Assembly: GCF_021249345.1 (NCBI RefSeq)
Contig: NZ_CP089588.1
Location: 310,001-374,000, forward strand
From: Halobacterium wangiae
GTDB taxonomy: Archaea; Halobacteriota; Halobacteria; Halobacteriales; Halobacteriaceae
Length of the DNA stretch: 64,000 bases
Reading direction: 5' to 3'
Position 1 is the first letter of the stretch. The number at the start of each line of letters is the position of its first letter. A model generated the notes under the pieces. That model searched no databases and was not told the DNA's origin. It was given only the letters and a program-made list of their open reading frames with translations. Below, piece after piece: positions 13,198 to 59,798 of this stretch. The translations under genes and the position numbers were made by a program.

Positions 13198-13424
13198 GGT
13201 CACCACTACGACCGCCGTCCGGATTAGCCTGTGGCCGCCTCGCGTCGTACCGCCGAACGGGCAATCCCTGCTGTTTTTAACACCGCGGGTACAACCATGC
13301 GCAAGAGCAGCGTCGCGGGCGTCCACGCGACGGCGGCTAACGGCCGCAAGACGCCGTAGTTCGCCGTCGCCAGTCCGCGGCTGTTTAGAGACGCGCACAA
13401 ACGCGGGTTTCAGTGATTCCAACC

Positions 13425-14771
13425 ATGGAAATCGAAATTGCAACCATCGGCGGTTACGAGGAAGTCGGGCGGCAGATGACTGCGGTTCGAGCAGGAGACG
13501 ACATCGTCATCTTCGACATGGGTCTGAACCTCTCGCAGGTCCTGATCCACGACAACGTCGAGACCGAGAAGATGCACAGCCTCGACCTGATCGACATGGG
13601 CGCCATCCCCGACGACCGGGTGATGAGCGACCTCGAGGGCGACGTGAAGGCAATCGTGCCGACCCACGGCCACCTCGACCACATCGGCGCGCTCTCGAAG
13701 CTCGCCCACCGCTACAACGCACCCATCGTCGCCTCGCCCTTCACCATCGAACTGGTGAAGGGCCAGATCGAGGGCGAACAGAAGTTCGGCGTCGACAACG
13801 AACTCGTGGAGATGAGCGCCGGAGAGACGATGGACATCGGCGAGCGCTGCGAACTCGAGTTCGTCCACGTCACGCACTCCATCATCGACGCCATCAACCC
13901 CGTCCTCCACACGCCGGAGGGCGCCGTCGTCTACGGCCTCGACAAGCGTATCGACAACGACCCCGTCCTCGAGGACCCGATCGACATGAAGCGGTTCCGC
14001 GAACTGGGCCGCGAGGGCGAGGGCGTCCTCTGTTACATCGAGGACTGTACGAACGCCGGCCGGAAGGGCCGTACACCCTCCGAGAGCGTGGCGCGGCGCC
14101 ACCTCAAAGACGTGCTCCAGAGCGTCGAGGACTACGACGGCGGCATCGTCGCCACGACGTTCTCCAGTCACGTCTCCCGGGTCTCCTCGCTCGTGGAGTT
14201 CGCGAAGGACATCGGCCGCGAACCCATCCTGCTCGGTCGCTCGATGGAACACTACTCGGGCACCGCAGAGCGCATGGGCCGCGTGAACTTCCCGGACGAC
14301 CTCGGGATGTTCGGTCACCGGAAGTCCGTCGACCGTGCGTTCAAGCGCGTGATGAACGAGGGCAAGGAGAACTTCCTCCCCATCGTCACTGGCCACCAGG
14401 GCGAGCCGCGCGCGATGCTCACCCGGATGGGTCGCGGCGAGACCCCCTACGACATCGAGGACGGTGACAAGGTCATCTTCTCGGCCCGCGTGATTCCGGA
14501 GCCGACCAACGAGGGGCAGCGCTACCAGTCCGAGCGCCTCCTCCAGATGCAGGGCGCGCGCATCTACGACGACATTCACGTCTCGGGCCACCTCCGCGAG
14601 GAAGGCCACTACCAGATGCTCGACGCGCTCCAGCCCCAGCACGTCATCCCTGCCCACCAGAACATGAAGGGCTTCGCACCGTACGCGGCCCTCTGCAAGA
14701 GCCAGGGGTACAAGCTCGGCCGCGACCTCCACGTGACGGAGAACGGCAACACCATCCAGCTCGTCGAGTAG
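13425..14771 (+). CDS. rnj: Ribonuclease J
   Basis: Metallo-beta-lactamase/beta-CASP ribonuclease, in archaea a 5'-3' exonuclease for RNA decay. The 448 residues carry HGHLDH at 81-86, later metal ligands in [16 protein letters not shown] and the beta-CASP region, and the C-terminal [13 protein letters not shown] and PAHQNMKGF motifs. The ATG at 13425 is chosen over the GTG at 13413. The next gene, GGPP synthase, starts on the base after its stop, so the two are an operon downstream of the lipid kinases. Confidence 0.94.
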
Positions 14772-55008: not shown

Positions 55009-56658
55009 CTACCGGAGCCGCTTGCTGACGTACGGCCCGTCCTGGTAGTAGCCGAGCTTCTCCTTGTAGTACTGGCGTGCGCCGATGCCCGAGATGACCG
55101 AGAGCTTCTCGAAGCCGGCGTCGGCGGCCATTTCCTCGGCACGCTCCATCAGGCGGCGGCCGAAGCCCTGGTGCTGGTGCTGGCCGTCCGCGGTGTCGTC
55201 CCCCACGCCGACTTCGCCGCCGTAGACGTGGAGTTCACGGAGGAGCGCCGCGTTCTCCAGTTCACGGCGCACCGGATCGTTCGGGTAGCGGAGGCGCGCG
55301 AACCCGACGAGGAGGTCGCGGTCGAAGTCCTCGAAGCTGATGAAGTGCTCCGTGCCGCCCGCGGCGTCGTAGGTCAGTACGTCGAGTTCGACGTCCTGTG
55401 GCTCCTCGTCGTTCATCCCGGCTTCCCGGCAGCGGATGCACTCGCAGGTGTAGCCGTGTTCGTCCATCCGCTGGCGGGCGAGCTGTCGGAGGTTCGACTT
55501 CCAGACGCCGGCGTCGATGTGGTCCGCGGGGATGTCCCGCTGGACGCGCTGGAGGCGCGTGTAGCGCGGGATCATCTCCTTGATCTCGGCGACCAGCTCG
55601 GCGGCTTCCTCGTTCTGGAGCGGCTGGAACTCCTCGTTGCGCCACATGTCGTACGTGACGGTGTCGCGGACGACCAGCGTCGGGTAGATCTTGAGGTAGT
55701 CCGGCTTCCACTGCTCGTCCTCGAAGATCCGCCGGAAGTCCTCCAGACACATCTCCTCGGTCATCCCGGGCTGGCCGGGCATCATGTGGAAGCCGACCTT
55801 GAACGCCGCGTCGCGGAGCCGACGGTTGGCGTCGATGGAGGCCTGCACGCCGTGCCCGCGGTGCATCTCGCGGTTGATGCGCTCGTAGGTCGTCTGCACC
55901 CCGACCTCGACCTTCGTACCGCCGAGGTCCAGCATCCGGTCCACCTGTTCGGGGTCACACCAGTCGGGCTTCGTCTCGAACGTCGTCCCGATGTTCCGGA
56001 TGTCGCCGTACTCGTTCTCCGCGATGACGTCCTCCAGGTAGCTGAACTCGTACTCTCCGGGGTCCTGGGCGAACGACTCGCCCTCGGCGGGCCGGGGGTC
56101 GGCGTCGAGGTCGTAGTCGTTCATCGCCTCGAGCGCGCGCTTCACGAACCACTCCTGGTAGTCGTGGCTGCGCGCGGTCATCGTCCCGCCCATCAGGATG
56201 AGTTCGACCTTGTCCACGGGGTGGCCGATCTCCCGGAGCTGGTGGAGGCGCAGCGTCACCTGTCCGTACGGGTCGTAGTCGTTCTGCACGCCGCGGGCCG
56301 CTGCGGGCTCGTGGCCGGTGTAGGACTGACTGGACGAGAACTCCGAAGCGGGGCCGCCCGGACAGTAGAGGCACTTCCCGTGCGGGCACATGTGCGGACT
56401 CGTCATGATGGCGACGGGGGTCACACCCGACGCCGTCCGCACCGGCTTGCGCTGGAGGACCTCCTCCAGTTCCTCGCGGCGGCCGTCGGGCGCGAAGTCC
56501 AGCAGCTCGGAGTGCTTGGGCACCTTCGCCGCGGAGTGCTCCGAGCAGACGTCCAGTTTCGCGCTCTCGACGTCGTCGCGGCCGACGTCGCCCTCGAGGA
56601 TCCGCTGGACGAGCGCCTCGCAGGCTGCCGCGAACGCGCCGTCGGCGTCGCTACTCAT
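55009..56658 (-). CDS. elp3: Elp3-type tRNA uridine(34) carboxymethyl-modifying enzyme
   Basis: Radical SAM plus GNAT enzyme that modifies wobble uridine. Of 549 residues, the radical SAM cluster Cys91, Cys96 and Cys99 lies in MCPHGKCLYCPGGPASEF; HGVQASIDANRRLRDAAFK and GFHMMPGQPGM follow, then CECIRC (zinc) near 405-410. The C-terminal GNAT domain has QHQGFGRRLMERAEEMAADA. Archaeal Elp3 acts alone without the other Elongator subunits. ATG at 56658. Confidence 0.94.
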   Translation of the reverse strand: MSSDADGAFAAACEALVQRILEGDVGRDDVESAKLDVCSEHSAAKVPKHSELLDFAPDGRREELEEVLQRKPVRTASGVTPVAIMTSPHMCPHGKCLYCPGGPASEFSSSQSYTGHEPAAARGVQNDYDPYGQVTLRLHQLREIGHPVDKVELILMGGTMTARSHDYQEWFVKRALEAMNDYDLDADPRPAEGESFAQDPGEYEFSYLEDVIAENEYGDIRNIGTTFETKPDWCDPEQVDRMLDLGGTKVEVGVQTTYERINREMHRGHGVQASIDANRRLRDAAFKVGFHMMPGQPGMTEEMCLEDFRRIFEDEQWKPDYLKIYPTLVVRDTVTYDMWRNEEFQPLQNEEAAELVAEIKEMIPRYTRLQRVQRDIPADHIDAGVWKSNLRQLARQRMDEHGYTCECIRCREAGMNDEEPQDVELDVLTYDAAGGTEHFISFEDFDRDLLVGFARLRYPNDPVRRELENAALLRELHVYGGEVGVGDDTADGQHQHQGFGRRLMERAEEMAADAGFEKLSVISGIGARQYYKEKLGYYQDGPYVSKRLR

Positions 56659-56709
56659 TGCGCGAAGGAAGCAGTCGAGAGCGAAAAAGCGTGTCGTTGC
56701 GACCGCAGC

Positions 56710-58845
56710 TTACGCGAGCTGGTCCGCGATCCCGGAGACGACGGCGTCGACGACGGCCGCCTGTTCGCCCGAGAGGAACTCGATGCGGCCGTCGCGGGCG
56801 CCGCGGGTCAGGACGCCGGCTTCCGGGAGTTCCTCGGCGATGCGCCCGCCGACCGCGCGCACGTCCACCGAGTCGTCGCTGCGGACGCGGAGTTCGTCGC
56901 CGCTGACGCCGACGAGCACGTCCGCGCGGTCGTTCCGGCGGTGGAGCGCGTCGAGCAGCAGGTCGACCGGCGGGAAGTCGTACTGGTGGGTGTAGTCGTC
57001 GACGTCGAGCACTTCGAAGGTGACGCCGTTCTCGCCGCGCACCCGGAGGTGGGGCTCGGCGGTCGCGAGTTCGGTGTCGAGGCGCTCGCGGAACTGCGCG
57101 GAGACGTGCGTGATGAGCGAGTCGTCGGCCTCGCCCCACAGCAGGTCGCTGATGAGTTCGCGCTTGTCCTCGTAGGACTGGTAGAACGCCTCCAGTGCGA
57201 TGGCGTCCCGGAGGTTCTCCAGGGTCTCGCGGCTGTAGTCAGTCGTGTCGGCGAGGTCGGCGTACGCGGCCGGCAGCTCCTCCCAGTAGGCGACCGCGGG
57301 GAGGTGGTAGAGGTCCTCGCGCACGTCGTCGTTGACGAACGCGGCGAGCTGCGCGCCGAGTGCGCCCGTGTTGACGGGGTCCTCGCCGGCGTCGGTGGGA
57401 CTGACAAGGACGTCTGCGCCCGCGGCCTCGTCGGTGTAGCCGCCGTCGACGGCGACCGTGTCCACGTCGTACATGTCGAGCAGGTCGATGGCGTCCGTGG
57501 ACTCGCTGGTGGAGCCGGCGCCGACGAGCACGAACAGTGGGTGCTTCTCGTCGTGGCGTTCGGCGGCTTCGAGCATGTCCGTCACGTCGCCCGTCGCGTC
57601 GTCGATGGTGTAGAACGCGTCGTCGAGCGGGCGGCGGTCGACGTAGTGGTACTCGGCGTCAGATCGTGCGTGCTTCTCGCGGATGAGCGGGAGGAGCGCG
57701 CGCTCGATGGCGGTGCCGGCGACGTACCCCTCGACGGTTGTGGTGTGGCGGACGATGACCGGGCGGGAGTCGACGACCGCGCGGCGGATGGCCGTCGCGG
57801 CGTCCACGAGGTCGTCGTGGATCGCCTCGACCGCCGGGTCGTCGGCGAGCAGTTCGGTGACGTTGGGGCTGGCCTCCTCGGTGAGTGCGTCCTCCATGCG
57901 GGTGGAGACGTCGTCGGCTGCCTGTCCGTCGAGGACGGTCAGGTCCTCGGTCTCGACCTGCAGTTCGCCGCGGCGGCGTTCGACGTCGCCGACGATGCGG
58001 ACGACGTCGCCCGCGTCGGTCTCGGGGTACGCGCGAACGCCTGCCTCGACGAACGCCGCGCAGTCGACGGTGCCGGTCTCGTCGGCGAGTTCGAACACGG
58101 TCGGGCCGCTGGTCTGGCGCGCGCTCGTGATCTCGCCCTCGACGGCGACGCGCTCGTCGACGTGGTCGGCGAGGTCGGCGATGGAGACCCGCTGTGGGGC
58201 CTCTTCGGCGGACGTCTCGTCTGTGTCGTCGGCCTCCGCGTCGGCGGCCGGCGCTTCCTCGTCGGGTTCGCTCTCGGCAGGTTCGCTCTCGGCGGACTCC
58301 GCGTCGTCGTCCTCGCCGAACTCGAACTCGTTGGCGTCGTCGGCGACCGGCGTGCCGCCGTCGGCCGTCTCCGTCTCCGAGTCGGCGTCCGCCTGGGTCG
58401 CGTCGGCCGACTCGTCGGTCTCGGCCGGGTCGGCTGCTGCGTCGTCGCTGTCGTCTTCGTCAGGGAGTTCGGCGTTCGACTCGGCGCTCGGGTCGTCGAC
58501 GAGGTGGCCCCGGAAGTCGCGCTCGGTCTGTCGGATGGACCAGCCGAGGTCGACGTTGCCGTTGTCGTGGACGCCCGTCACCTGGACGTAGACCTCGTCG
58601 CCGGCGTCCCAGTCGAGGGACTCGACGCGGCCGGGAACTTCGCTACGGTGGAGCAGCCCGGTGACGTTGTCGCCGATGTCGACGAAGACGCCGAACTCGG
58701 CGAACCCGTCGACACTCCCGCGGTAGAAGCGGCCGGACGTCAACTGGTTGGGGGACCGTCCTCGGAACTCGAACGCGACGTCTTCTTCGTGCGTGTCACA
58801 GATGCGGCCGTCGGTGGAGGCGCCGCAGACAATACATGAACCCAT
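56710..58845 (-). CDS. Zinc-finger/S1/OB/DHH (RecJ-like) protein with degenerate active site
   Basis: Protein of 711 residues. A short zinc finger (CIVCGASTDGRICDTH) begins it, then an S1 domain (FYRGSVDGFAEFGVFVDIGD), an acidic linker of about 90 residues, an OB-fold (VAVEGEITSARQTSGPTVFE) and a RecJ-like DHH region from about 330. In the last, the motif expected to read H-x-D-x-D-G is RHTTTVEGYVAG, the DAGS position is VGAGSTSESTDA, and the DHH position is VAVDGGYTDE. The metal-binding Asp and His are therefore missing. It probably binds single-stranded nucleic acid without cutting it. ATG at 58845 preferred over 58851. A GTTTACG element lies about 25-31 nt upstream. Confidence 0.82.
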   Translation of the reverse strand: MGSCIVCGASTDGRICDTHEEDVAFEFRGRSPNQLTSGRFYRGSVDGFAEFGVFVDIGDNVTGLLHRSEVPGRVESLDWDAGDEVYVQVTGVHDNGNVDLGWSIRQTERDFRGHLVDDPSAESNAELPDEDDSDDAAADPAETDESADATQADADSETETADGGTPVADDANEFEFGEDDDAESAESEPAESEPDEEAPAADAEADDTDETSAEEAPQRVSIADLADHVDERVAVEGEITSARQTSGPTVFELADETGTVDCAAFVEAGVRAYPETDAGDVVRIVGDVERRRGELQVETEDLTVLDGQAADDVSTRMEDALTEEASPNVTELLADDPAVEAIHDDLVDAATAIRRAVVDSRPVIVRHTTTVEGYVAGTAIERALLPLIREKHARSDAEYHYVDRRPLDDAFYTIDDATGDVTDMLEAAERHDEKHPLFVLVGAGSTSESTDAIDLLDMYDVDTVAVDGGYTDEAAGADVLVSPTDAGEDPVNTGALGAQLAAFVNDDVREDLYHLPAVAYWEELPAAYADLADTTDYSRETLENLRDAIALEAFYQSYEDKRELISDLLWGEADDSLITHVSAQFRERLDTELATAEPHLRVRGENGVTFEVLDVDDYTHQYDFPPVDLLLDALHRRNDRADVLVGVSGDELRVRSDDSVDVRAVGGRIAEELPEAGVLTRGARDGRIEFLSGEQAAVVDAVVSGIADQLA

Positions 58846-58901
58846 TTGCATGGAGAAAGCGCACGCTCCCGTAAACGATTATCGAAAGTCGGGCGCGCGC
58901 G

Positions 58902-59186
58902 TCACTCGAAGACTGGGCTGTCGTCTTCCAGCGATTCGACGTCCGCCACGACGTCGCGGACGTCCTCGGGGAACAGCGCGACCTGCACCTCGTTGCCGGA
59001 CTTGTCCTCGAAGACGAGTTTGACGCGTTTGTCACCGAACTCGCGGGCCCGCGCGTCGTTGACGTCGAACAGTTTCACGTCCGCGCGCTTGTTCGACGGA
59101 CCGACGTTCTTGATGGCGCCGTCCTTCAGTTCGATCATGAACTCCGAGAGGTTGACGTTGAGCACGCTCGGCAGTTCGTGGCCCAC
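58902..59186 (-). CDS. Hypothetical 94-residue protein
   Basis: Unrecognised protein read from a GTG at 59186 (VGHELPSVLNVNLSEFMIEL). It is acidic, with alternating strands (KRVKLVFEDKSGNEVQVALF), and no cysteine or membrane segment. It begins 3 nt after the stop of the YIP1-like membrane gene, so it is the second gene of that pair. It lies 57 nt upstream of the RecJ-like gene on the same strand. Confidence 0.7.
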   Translation of the reverse strand: MGHELPSVLNVNLSEFMIELKDGAIKNVGPSNKRADVKLFDVNDARAREFGDKRVKLVFEDKSGNEVQVALFPEDVRDVVADVESLEDDSPVFE

Positions 59187-59189
59187 CGA

Positions 59190-59798
59190 CTAAAGTGCGA
59201 GTGCGGGAGCGACGACCCCGACGAGTTCGGCGGTCGCGGCGAACCAGCCGAACCCGGACCCGAACGCGAGCACGCCGGGGACGACGGCGGCGGCGAAGGC
59301 CCGCGGGAGCGAGAGGTCGTGGACGACGCTCGTCCCGAGGACGAGCAGGCCGAACGCCCAGAGGCCACAGACGACCGTCACGAGGGGGACGGAGACGCCG
59401 ACGAACGCGCAGGGGGCGGCGGCGTAGGCGAGCACCTGTACCGTCTCGCTGACGCCGCCGCGCTCGGGCGCGAACACGACGAGTGCGAGCGTCTCCAGTG
59501 CGGACAGCGCGTGGATTGCCGCGGGGGTGACGAGCAGTACCGCCAGCGACACCGTGAGCGCGGCCGCGAGCCACGGCGCCGTCGGGAACTCGAGGGCGGC
59601 CCCGGGCACGACCGCCATCCGAGTCGACTCCTCGACGAGGACGACGGCCATCCCGAAGACGAGCCCGGGCGCCTGGTCGCCCGGCGAGACCGCCTCCTCG
59701 AAGAACGTCCGCGGGTTCACGAGCACCTGCGTGAACGACTTGGCGAGCCCCACCGGCCCGCGCTCGCGGCCGCCCTCCGGTTCGACCCAGGTCGTCAT
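59190..59798 (-). CDS. YIP1-family membrane protein
   Basis: Protein of 202 residues. A soluble N terminus containing FTQVLVNPRTFFEEAVSPGD, typical of YIP1-type proteins, precedes five membrane segments (VLLVTPAAIHALSALETLAL, VQVLAYAAAPCAFVGVSVPL and others). The function in archaea is unknown. ATG at 59798, one base from the thymidine kinase stop, so it lies in the same leftward string. Confidence 0.8.
   Translation of the reverse strand: MTTWVEPEGGRERGPVGLAKSFTQVLVNPRTFFEEAVSPGDQAPGLVFGMAVVLVEESTRMAVVPGAALEFPTAPWLAAALTVSLAVLLVTPAAIHALSALETLALVVFAPERGGVSETVQVLAYAAAPCAFVGVSVPLVTVVCGLWAFGLLVLGTSVVHDLSLPRAFAAAVVPGVLAFGSGFGWFAATAELVGVVAPALAL

Follow-up and report, generated by a model that had tools for sequence, protein, structure and literature searches.

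The stretch of Halobacterium wangiae DNA that was analysed (the window; 64,000 nucleotides) carries on its minus strand a gene for a RecJ-like protein with a degenerate active site. Counted from an upstream methionine at 58851, the open frame spans 56710..58851 and has 713 amino acids; since the methionine at 58845 (MGSC..., M3 in the ortholog alignment) is invariant among the relatives of the window protein, 58845 is the better start. The outer coordinate of the original prediction, which did not state the strand, coincides with this conserved methionine and is thus right. A plus-strand reading of 56710-58845 contains a stop and was rejected. The features of the locus are as follows:

56710..58845, minus strand: probable recJ4 orthologue, 711 amino acids from the conserved methionine
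58785..58845, minus strand: N-terminal zinc finger, C6-C9-C18-H21 (713-aa numbering), CxxC-x8-CxxH
58546..58734, minus strand: S1 domain, residues 40-102 (Pfam PF00575, E 2.5e-8)
58207..58485, minus strand: acidic, Lys/Arg-poor linker, predicted to be disordered, residues 123-215 (pLDDT < 50)
57931..58149, minus strand: OB-fold domain, residues 235-307 (Pfam PF01336, E 7.4e-13)
56713..57915, minus strand: degenerate DHH and DHHA1 part, residues 313-713 (5YH1 alignment, AlphaFold model, Foldseek)
57727..57750, minus strand: degenerate motif I, RHTTTVEG, residues 368-375 (active HAN: RHHAD[AT]DG)
57505..57525, minus strand: degenerate motif II, around VGAGST (active HAN: [VL]DNGST)
57433..57450, minus strand: degenerate motif III, VDGGY (active HAN: [VI]DHHH)
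55009..56658, minus strand: elp3 (TIGR01211, 785 bits)
13413..14771, plus strand: aRNase J gene (TIGR00649, 423 bits, cut-off 400)

The domain order zinc finger, S1, OB and DHH-like had been read from the sequence before, and it is confirmed here: the zinc ligands C6, C9, C18 and H21 are all invariant in 27 aligned orthologues, S1 and OB are recognised by Pfam, and the C-terminal part is covered by the alignment with the HAN structure 5YH1 and by the fold. The Pfam search did not recognise the C-terminal DHH part of the window protein because its motifs are degenerate; Pfam DHH is therefore unusable as a detector, and the homology was established via the HAN profile, 5YH1 and the fold. An AlphaFold model for which the window protein was combined with 26 orthologues has a mean pLDDT of 76.5; the folded domains are modelled with confidence, and residues 123-215 come out as disordered. 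Residues 114-225 consist of D/E to 39% and of K/R to 2%, and among 81 orthologues the linker between S1 and OB has a median length of 110 amino acids and 33% D/E.

Downstream of the gene, 51 bases apart, lies elp3, which adjoins recJ4 in 35 of 45 loci. Both belong to a same-strand run (55009-59798, minus strand) that continues beyond recJ4 with an ORF of 94 amino acids, for which no NCBIfam model matched, and with a membrane protein gene; across the 45 loci, the small ORF is found beside recJ4 in 18 cases, the membrane protein gene in 24. The aRNase J gene of the window, at a distance of some 42 kb from recJ4, immediately precedes a polyprenyl-synthase-like gene.

Family placement and relation to RecJ4

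The best NCBIfam-type profile for the window protein is that of HAN, the Hef-associated nuclease (NF053577, E 1.5e-109), on which its 367 bits lie far below the equivalog cut-off of 840 bits. The genome holds one paralogue, with 35% identity to the window protein, that reaches 1087 bits on the same profile. By sequence, the best solved relative is P. furiosus HAN (5YH1), which aligns end to end over the DHH part (phmmer E 4e-41), and the same structure is the top Foldseek match of the model (E 3.5e-32, TM 0.81 on the target). The GAN/RecJ-Cdc45 structures gave weaker fold matches (TM on the target 0.31-0.59), bacterial RecJ was also far below 5YH1, and no GAN/RecJ-Cdc45 structure was among the phmmer matches up to E 1. 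Sequence and modelled fold both indicate that the window protein is a paralogue of HAN and lies outside the GAN/Cdc45 branch. Moreover, the genome encodes a further protein, of the archaeal RecJ/GAN type, whose motifs are intact (L158; NF053576, 637 bits). With HAN, with RecJ3 of H. volcanii (HVO_1018) and with 5YH1 the window protein shares full-length homology of the OB and DHH-DHHA1 parts and the same fold; HAN and RecJ3 retain all motifs, whereas the window protein does not, and haloarchaeal RecJ3 is devoid of the zinc finger that the window protein possesses.

Degenerate paralogues in haloarchaea, which the original prediction had suspected to be known already, have indeed been described. 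In H. volcanii, RecJ4 (HVO_2889) was predicted to be inactive (PMC7776575); it lacks the catalytic residues, and an acidic disordered region extends between S1 and OB at about residues 100-235 (PMC10470531), which is matched by the predicted disorder at 123-215 of the window protein. An earlier phylogenomic study from 2012 had reported inactivation in Halobacteria for arCOG00428 (RecJ2) and had called arCOG00429 active (PMC3307487); the inactivity of RecJ4 was recognised after that study and before the present analysis. H. volcanii RecJ4 and the window protein have in common the relation to HAN, the absence of the catalytic residues, the order S1-OB-DHH, the long stretch of acidic disorder that separates S1 from OB, and a genome in which RecJ3 and aRNase J occur and Rrp41 was not found; no essential difference was seen. 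From the clade, the architecture and the presence of one such gene per genome we infer that the window gene is the orthologue of HVO_2889. The scaffold pseudonuclease has already been published for H. volcanii, and the protein as such is known; the present analysis adds when the inactivation took place and that it arose once, that RecJ4 is nearly universal in the order, and that zinc finger and active site are distributed over different paralogues.

Loss of the active site and duplication history

In a residue-by-residue alignment of the window protein with 5YH1, RHTTTVEG stands opposite RHHADTDG, VGAGST opposite VDNGGT and VDGGY opposite IDHHD, and the motif-IV GDRS and the GGGH motif of DHHA1 are likewise gone. 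The motifs were compared in an alignment of 134 sequences that included 82 RecJ4, 19 RecJ3 and 31 other HANs. The second His of motif I is retained in none of the 82 RecJ4 sequences, the middle Asp of motif I in five (lost in 77), and the motif-II Asp in 12 (lost in 70). Both His residues of motif III are absent from all 82 and present in 19/19 RecJ3 and 31/31 other HANs. Because this pair is missing in every one of the orthologues, chance or sequencing error does not account for the loss. All 19 RecJ3 proteins, the 31 HANs from elsewhere in the phylum and the single HAN of the Halobacteriales genome G020 have all residues of motifs I to III intact, and these active copies also keep the Asp and Arg of motif IV and GGGH. 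The original prediction had quoted RHTTTVEG, VGAGSTSES and VDGGY exactly right, but its statement that all ligands are replaced went too far: the first His of motif I and the Asp of motif III are kept in 82/82 RecJ4, and the last acidic residue of motif I is always present (65 Asp, 17 Glu), with a conservative change to Glu in the window protein; the loss holds for the other positions. To judge from these residues, a two-metal site in RecJ4 is not plausible, and the surviving motif-I His and Asp/Glu together with the motif-III Asp may bind a single metal.

RecJ4 was detected in 388 of the 391 Halobacteriales genomes. Among the three scored as RecJ4-free, G353 has a copy that is interrupted by a contig end; the only two truly without RecJ4 are the near-complete genomes G020 and G219, each with a single HAN whose DHH and DHHA1 motifs are intact. 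In a tree of RecJ4, RecJ3 and HAN that was computed with the motif columns removed, RecJ4 forms one clade (support 100/100) separate from RecJ3/HAN, its stem measuring 1.46 substitutions per site; RecJ3 is a clade of its own (support 100/99), and the HANs of G020 and G219 are a third branch, for which the AU test rejects neither of the alternative branching orders relative to RecJ3 and RecJ4 (p-AU 0.41 and 0.40). In the RpoB tree, G020 and G219 branch together as the sister group of the ten further Halobacteriales included (support 97/96). The trees point to a duplication of HAN at or near the base of Halobacteriales. The simplest account would be a duplication after the split of G020/G219 followed by fast change of RecJ4, what favours it being the species tree and parsimony; the duplication may also have been earlier, with later loss of RecJ4 in the G020/G219 lineage.

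The two paralogues differ in the zinc finger, which is found in 81/82 RecJ4 and in 0/19 RecJ3. The single HAN of G020 has a finger of similar layout, CDVC-x10-CNEH, which was read directly from the sequence and agrees with a match that covers query residues 3-102; the automatic count excluded it, as the S1 pattern of the count is unmatched in that sequence. This distribution suggests that RecJ3 and RecJ4 divided the ancestral features between them, the active site going to RecJ3 and the zinc finger to RecJ4. It is tempting to speculate, with slightly less than even confidence, that the two are subfunctionalised halves of an ancestral zinc-finger HAN, and that RecJ4 became a scaffold presenting RNA or DNA, loosely resembling the pairing of catalytic and non-catalytic subunits in the exosome core of organisms with an exosome.

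Over three Halobacterium pairs, dN/dS is 0.12-0.35 for the DHH part of RecJ4, 0.07-0.19 for zinc finger and S1, and 0.35-0.91 for the linker: the folded parts are under purifying selection, and the sequence of the linker drifts while its acidity is retained. RecJ4 evolves faster than RecJ3.

Proposed role and alternative explanations

The complex, the scaffold role, the activity and the phenotype of RecJ4 have been shown by others in H. volcanii. There, RecJ4 is a scaffold that bridges its active paralogue RecJ3 to aRNase J in a RecJ3:RecJ4:aRNase J complex of 2:2:1 stoichiometry, and deletion of recJ4 abolishes the association of RecJ3 with aRNase J (PMC10470531). RecJ3/4 acts as a 3'-5' exonuclease within a complex that degrades RNA and DNA and is required for DNA repair, and a sensitivity to phleomycin shows that RecJ4 matters for survival (PMC10470531). 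The Halobacterium gene adds to this the family, the domain order, the degenerate site, its single origin and the selection acting on it; moreover, both partners, RecJ3 and aRNase J, are present in the same genome. Judged by its catalytic subunit Rrp41 only, the exosome is absent: Rrp41 was not found in this genome, nor in G020, G219 or G045, and it was found in both genomes tried outside Halobacteriales.

We consider it very probable that the window gene encodes the Halobacterium RecJ4, a non-catalytic subunit that forms a pair with RecJ3 and links this nuclease to aRNase J. By analogy, the protein presumably acts as RecJ4 of H. volcanii does. RecJ4 would have arisen by duplication of a HAN-type 3'-5' nuclease near the base of Halobacteriales: the RecJ3 copy kept the two-metal active site and is without a zinc finger, and the RecJ4 copy has zinc finger, S1, OB, the fold and the long acidic linker but no longer a metal site or the substrate motif of DHHA1. 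RecJ4 would pair with RecJ3 and recruit aRNase J as a bridge; it would offer nucleic-acid-binding domains, RecJ3 would cut in 3'-5' direction, and aRNase J would be restrained. The zinc finger, S1 and OB domains probably deliver the substrate, and the distribution of zinc finger and active site over the two copies hints at where labour may be divided within the RecJ3/4-aRNase J complex, which may serve RNA turnover and the recovery from DNA breaks in archaea without exosome. That a RecJ-like protein with a dead active site is retained, well structured and has a structural role in repair, as the original prediction had suggested, agrees with the H. volcanii literature (PMC10470531) and with the purifying selection.

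The analogy with Cdc45 served the same prediction less well as a guide to function. A structural role in the replisome, with binding to GINS and MCM, is conceivable since GAN and archaeal RecJ-Cdc45, eukaryotic Cdc45 and RecJ2 (arCOG00428) share the DHH superfamily with the window protein, some of them have lost catalysis as Cdc45 has, and inactivated RecJ relatives have been proposed as parts of the archaeal replisome (PMC3307487). The GAN/Cdc45 group, for which GINS and MCM are the reported partners, is however another branch of the superfamily: profile, sequence and fold place the window protein with HAN (TM 0.81 versus 0.31-0.59), the intact GAN-type protein L158 exists separately, and the inactive GAN-related group published for Halobacteria is a different one, arCOG00428/RecJ2. 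In addition, H. volcanii can do without recJ4 (PMC7776575, PMC10470531), and the partners reported for RecJ4 comprise RecJ3, aRNase J and Cdc48a/SAMP, with GINS or MCM not among them (PMC10470531). We therefore regard a Cdc45-like role as improbable. RecJ4 offers a clean case of a nuclease turned scaffold outside the Cdc45 lineage.

The conservation of the remaining motif-I His and Glu/Asp and of the motif-III Asp in 82/82 sequences could also mean that RecJ4 is a weakly active or single-metal nuclease. Yet these residues may serve the fold only, the middle Asp of motif I, the motif-II Asp, both motif-III His, GDRS and GGGH are lost to the extent given above, and RecJ3 suffices to explain the activity of RecJ3/4, so that such a residual activity has a small chance of being real, if not quite as small as that of a place in the replisome. 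A decaying, pseudogene-like paralogue without selected function might be expected from the long stem branch and the fast evolution relative to RecJ3; but this reading is contradicted already by the retention of RecJ4 in nearly every Halobacteriales genome, by dN/dS values well below 1 in the folded domains, by the invariant zinc ligands and by the repair phenotype in H. volcanii, and we give it almost no weight.

For RecJ4 as the non-catalytic partner of RecJ3, the deep-branching lineages of G020 (L105/L144) and G219 (L145), with a single active HAN, an aRNase J homologue and no RecJ4, provide a natural test of the need for the scaffold. Finally, a conserved block specific for RecJ4, R..A.ALEAFYQSYEDKREL..DLL at residues 548-571, with QSYEDKREL at 558-566, lies between DHH and DHHA1 and is a candidate interface with RecJ3 or aRNase J; across the OB-DHH part, 25 positions are invariant in RecJ4 and carry other residues in the active HANs.
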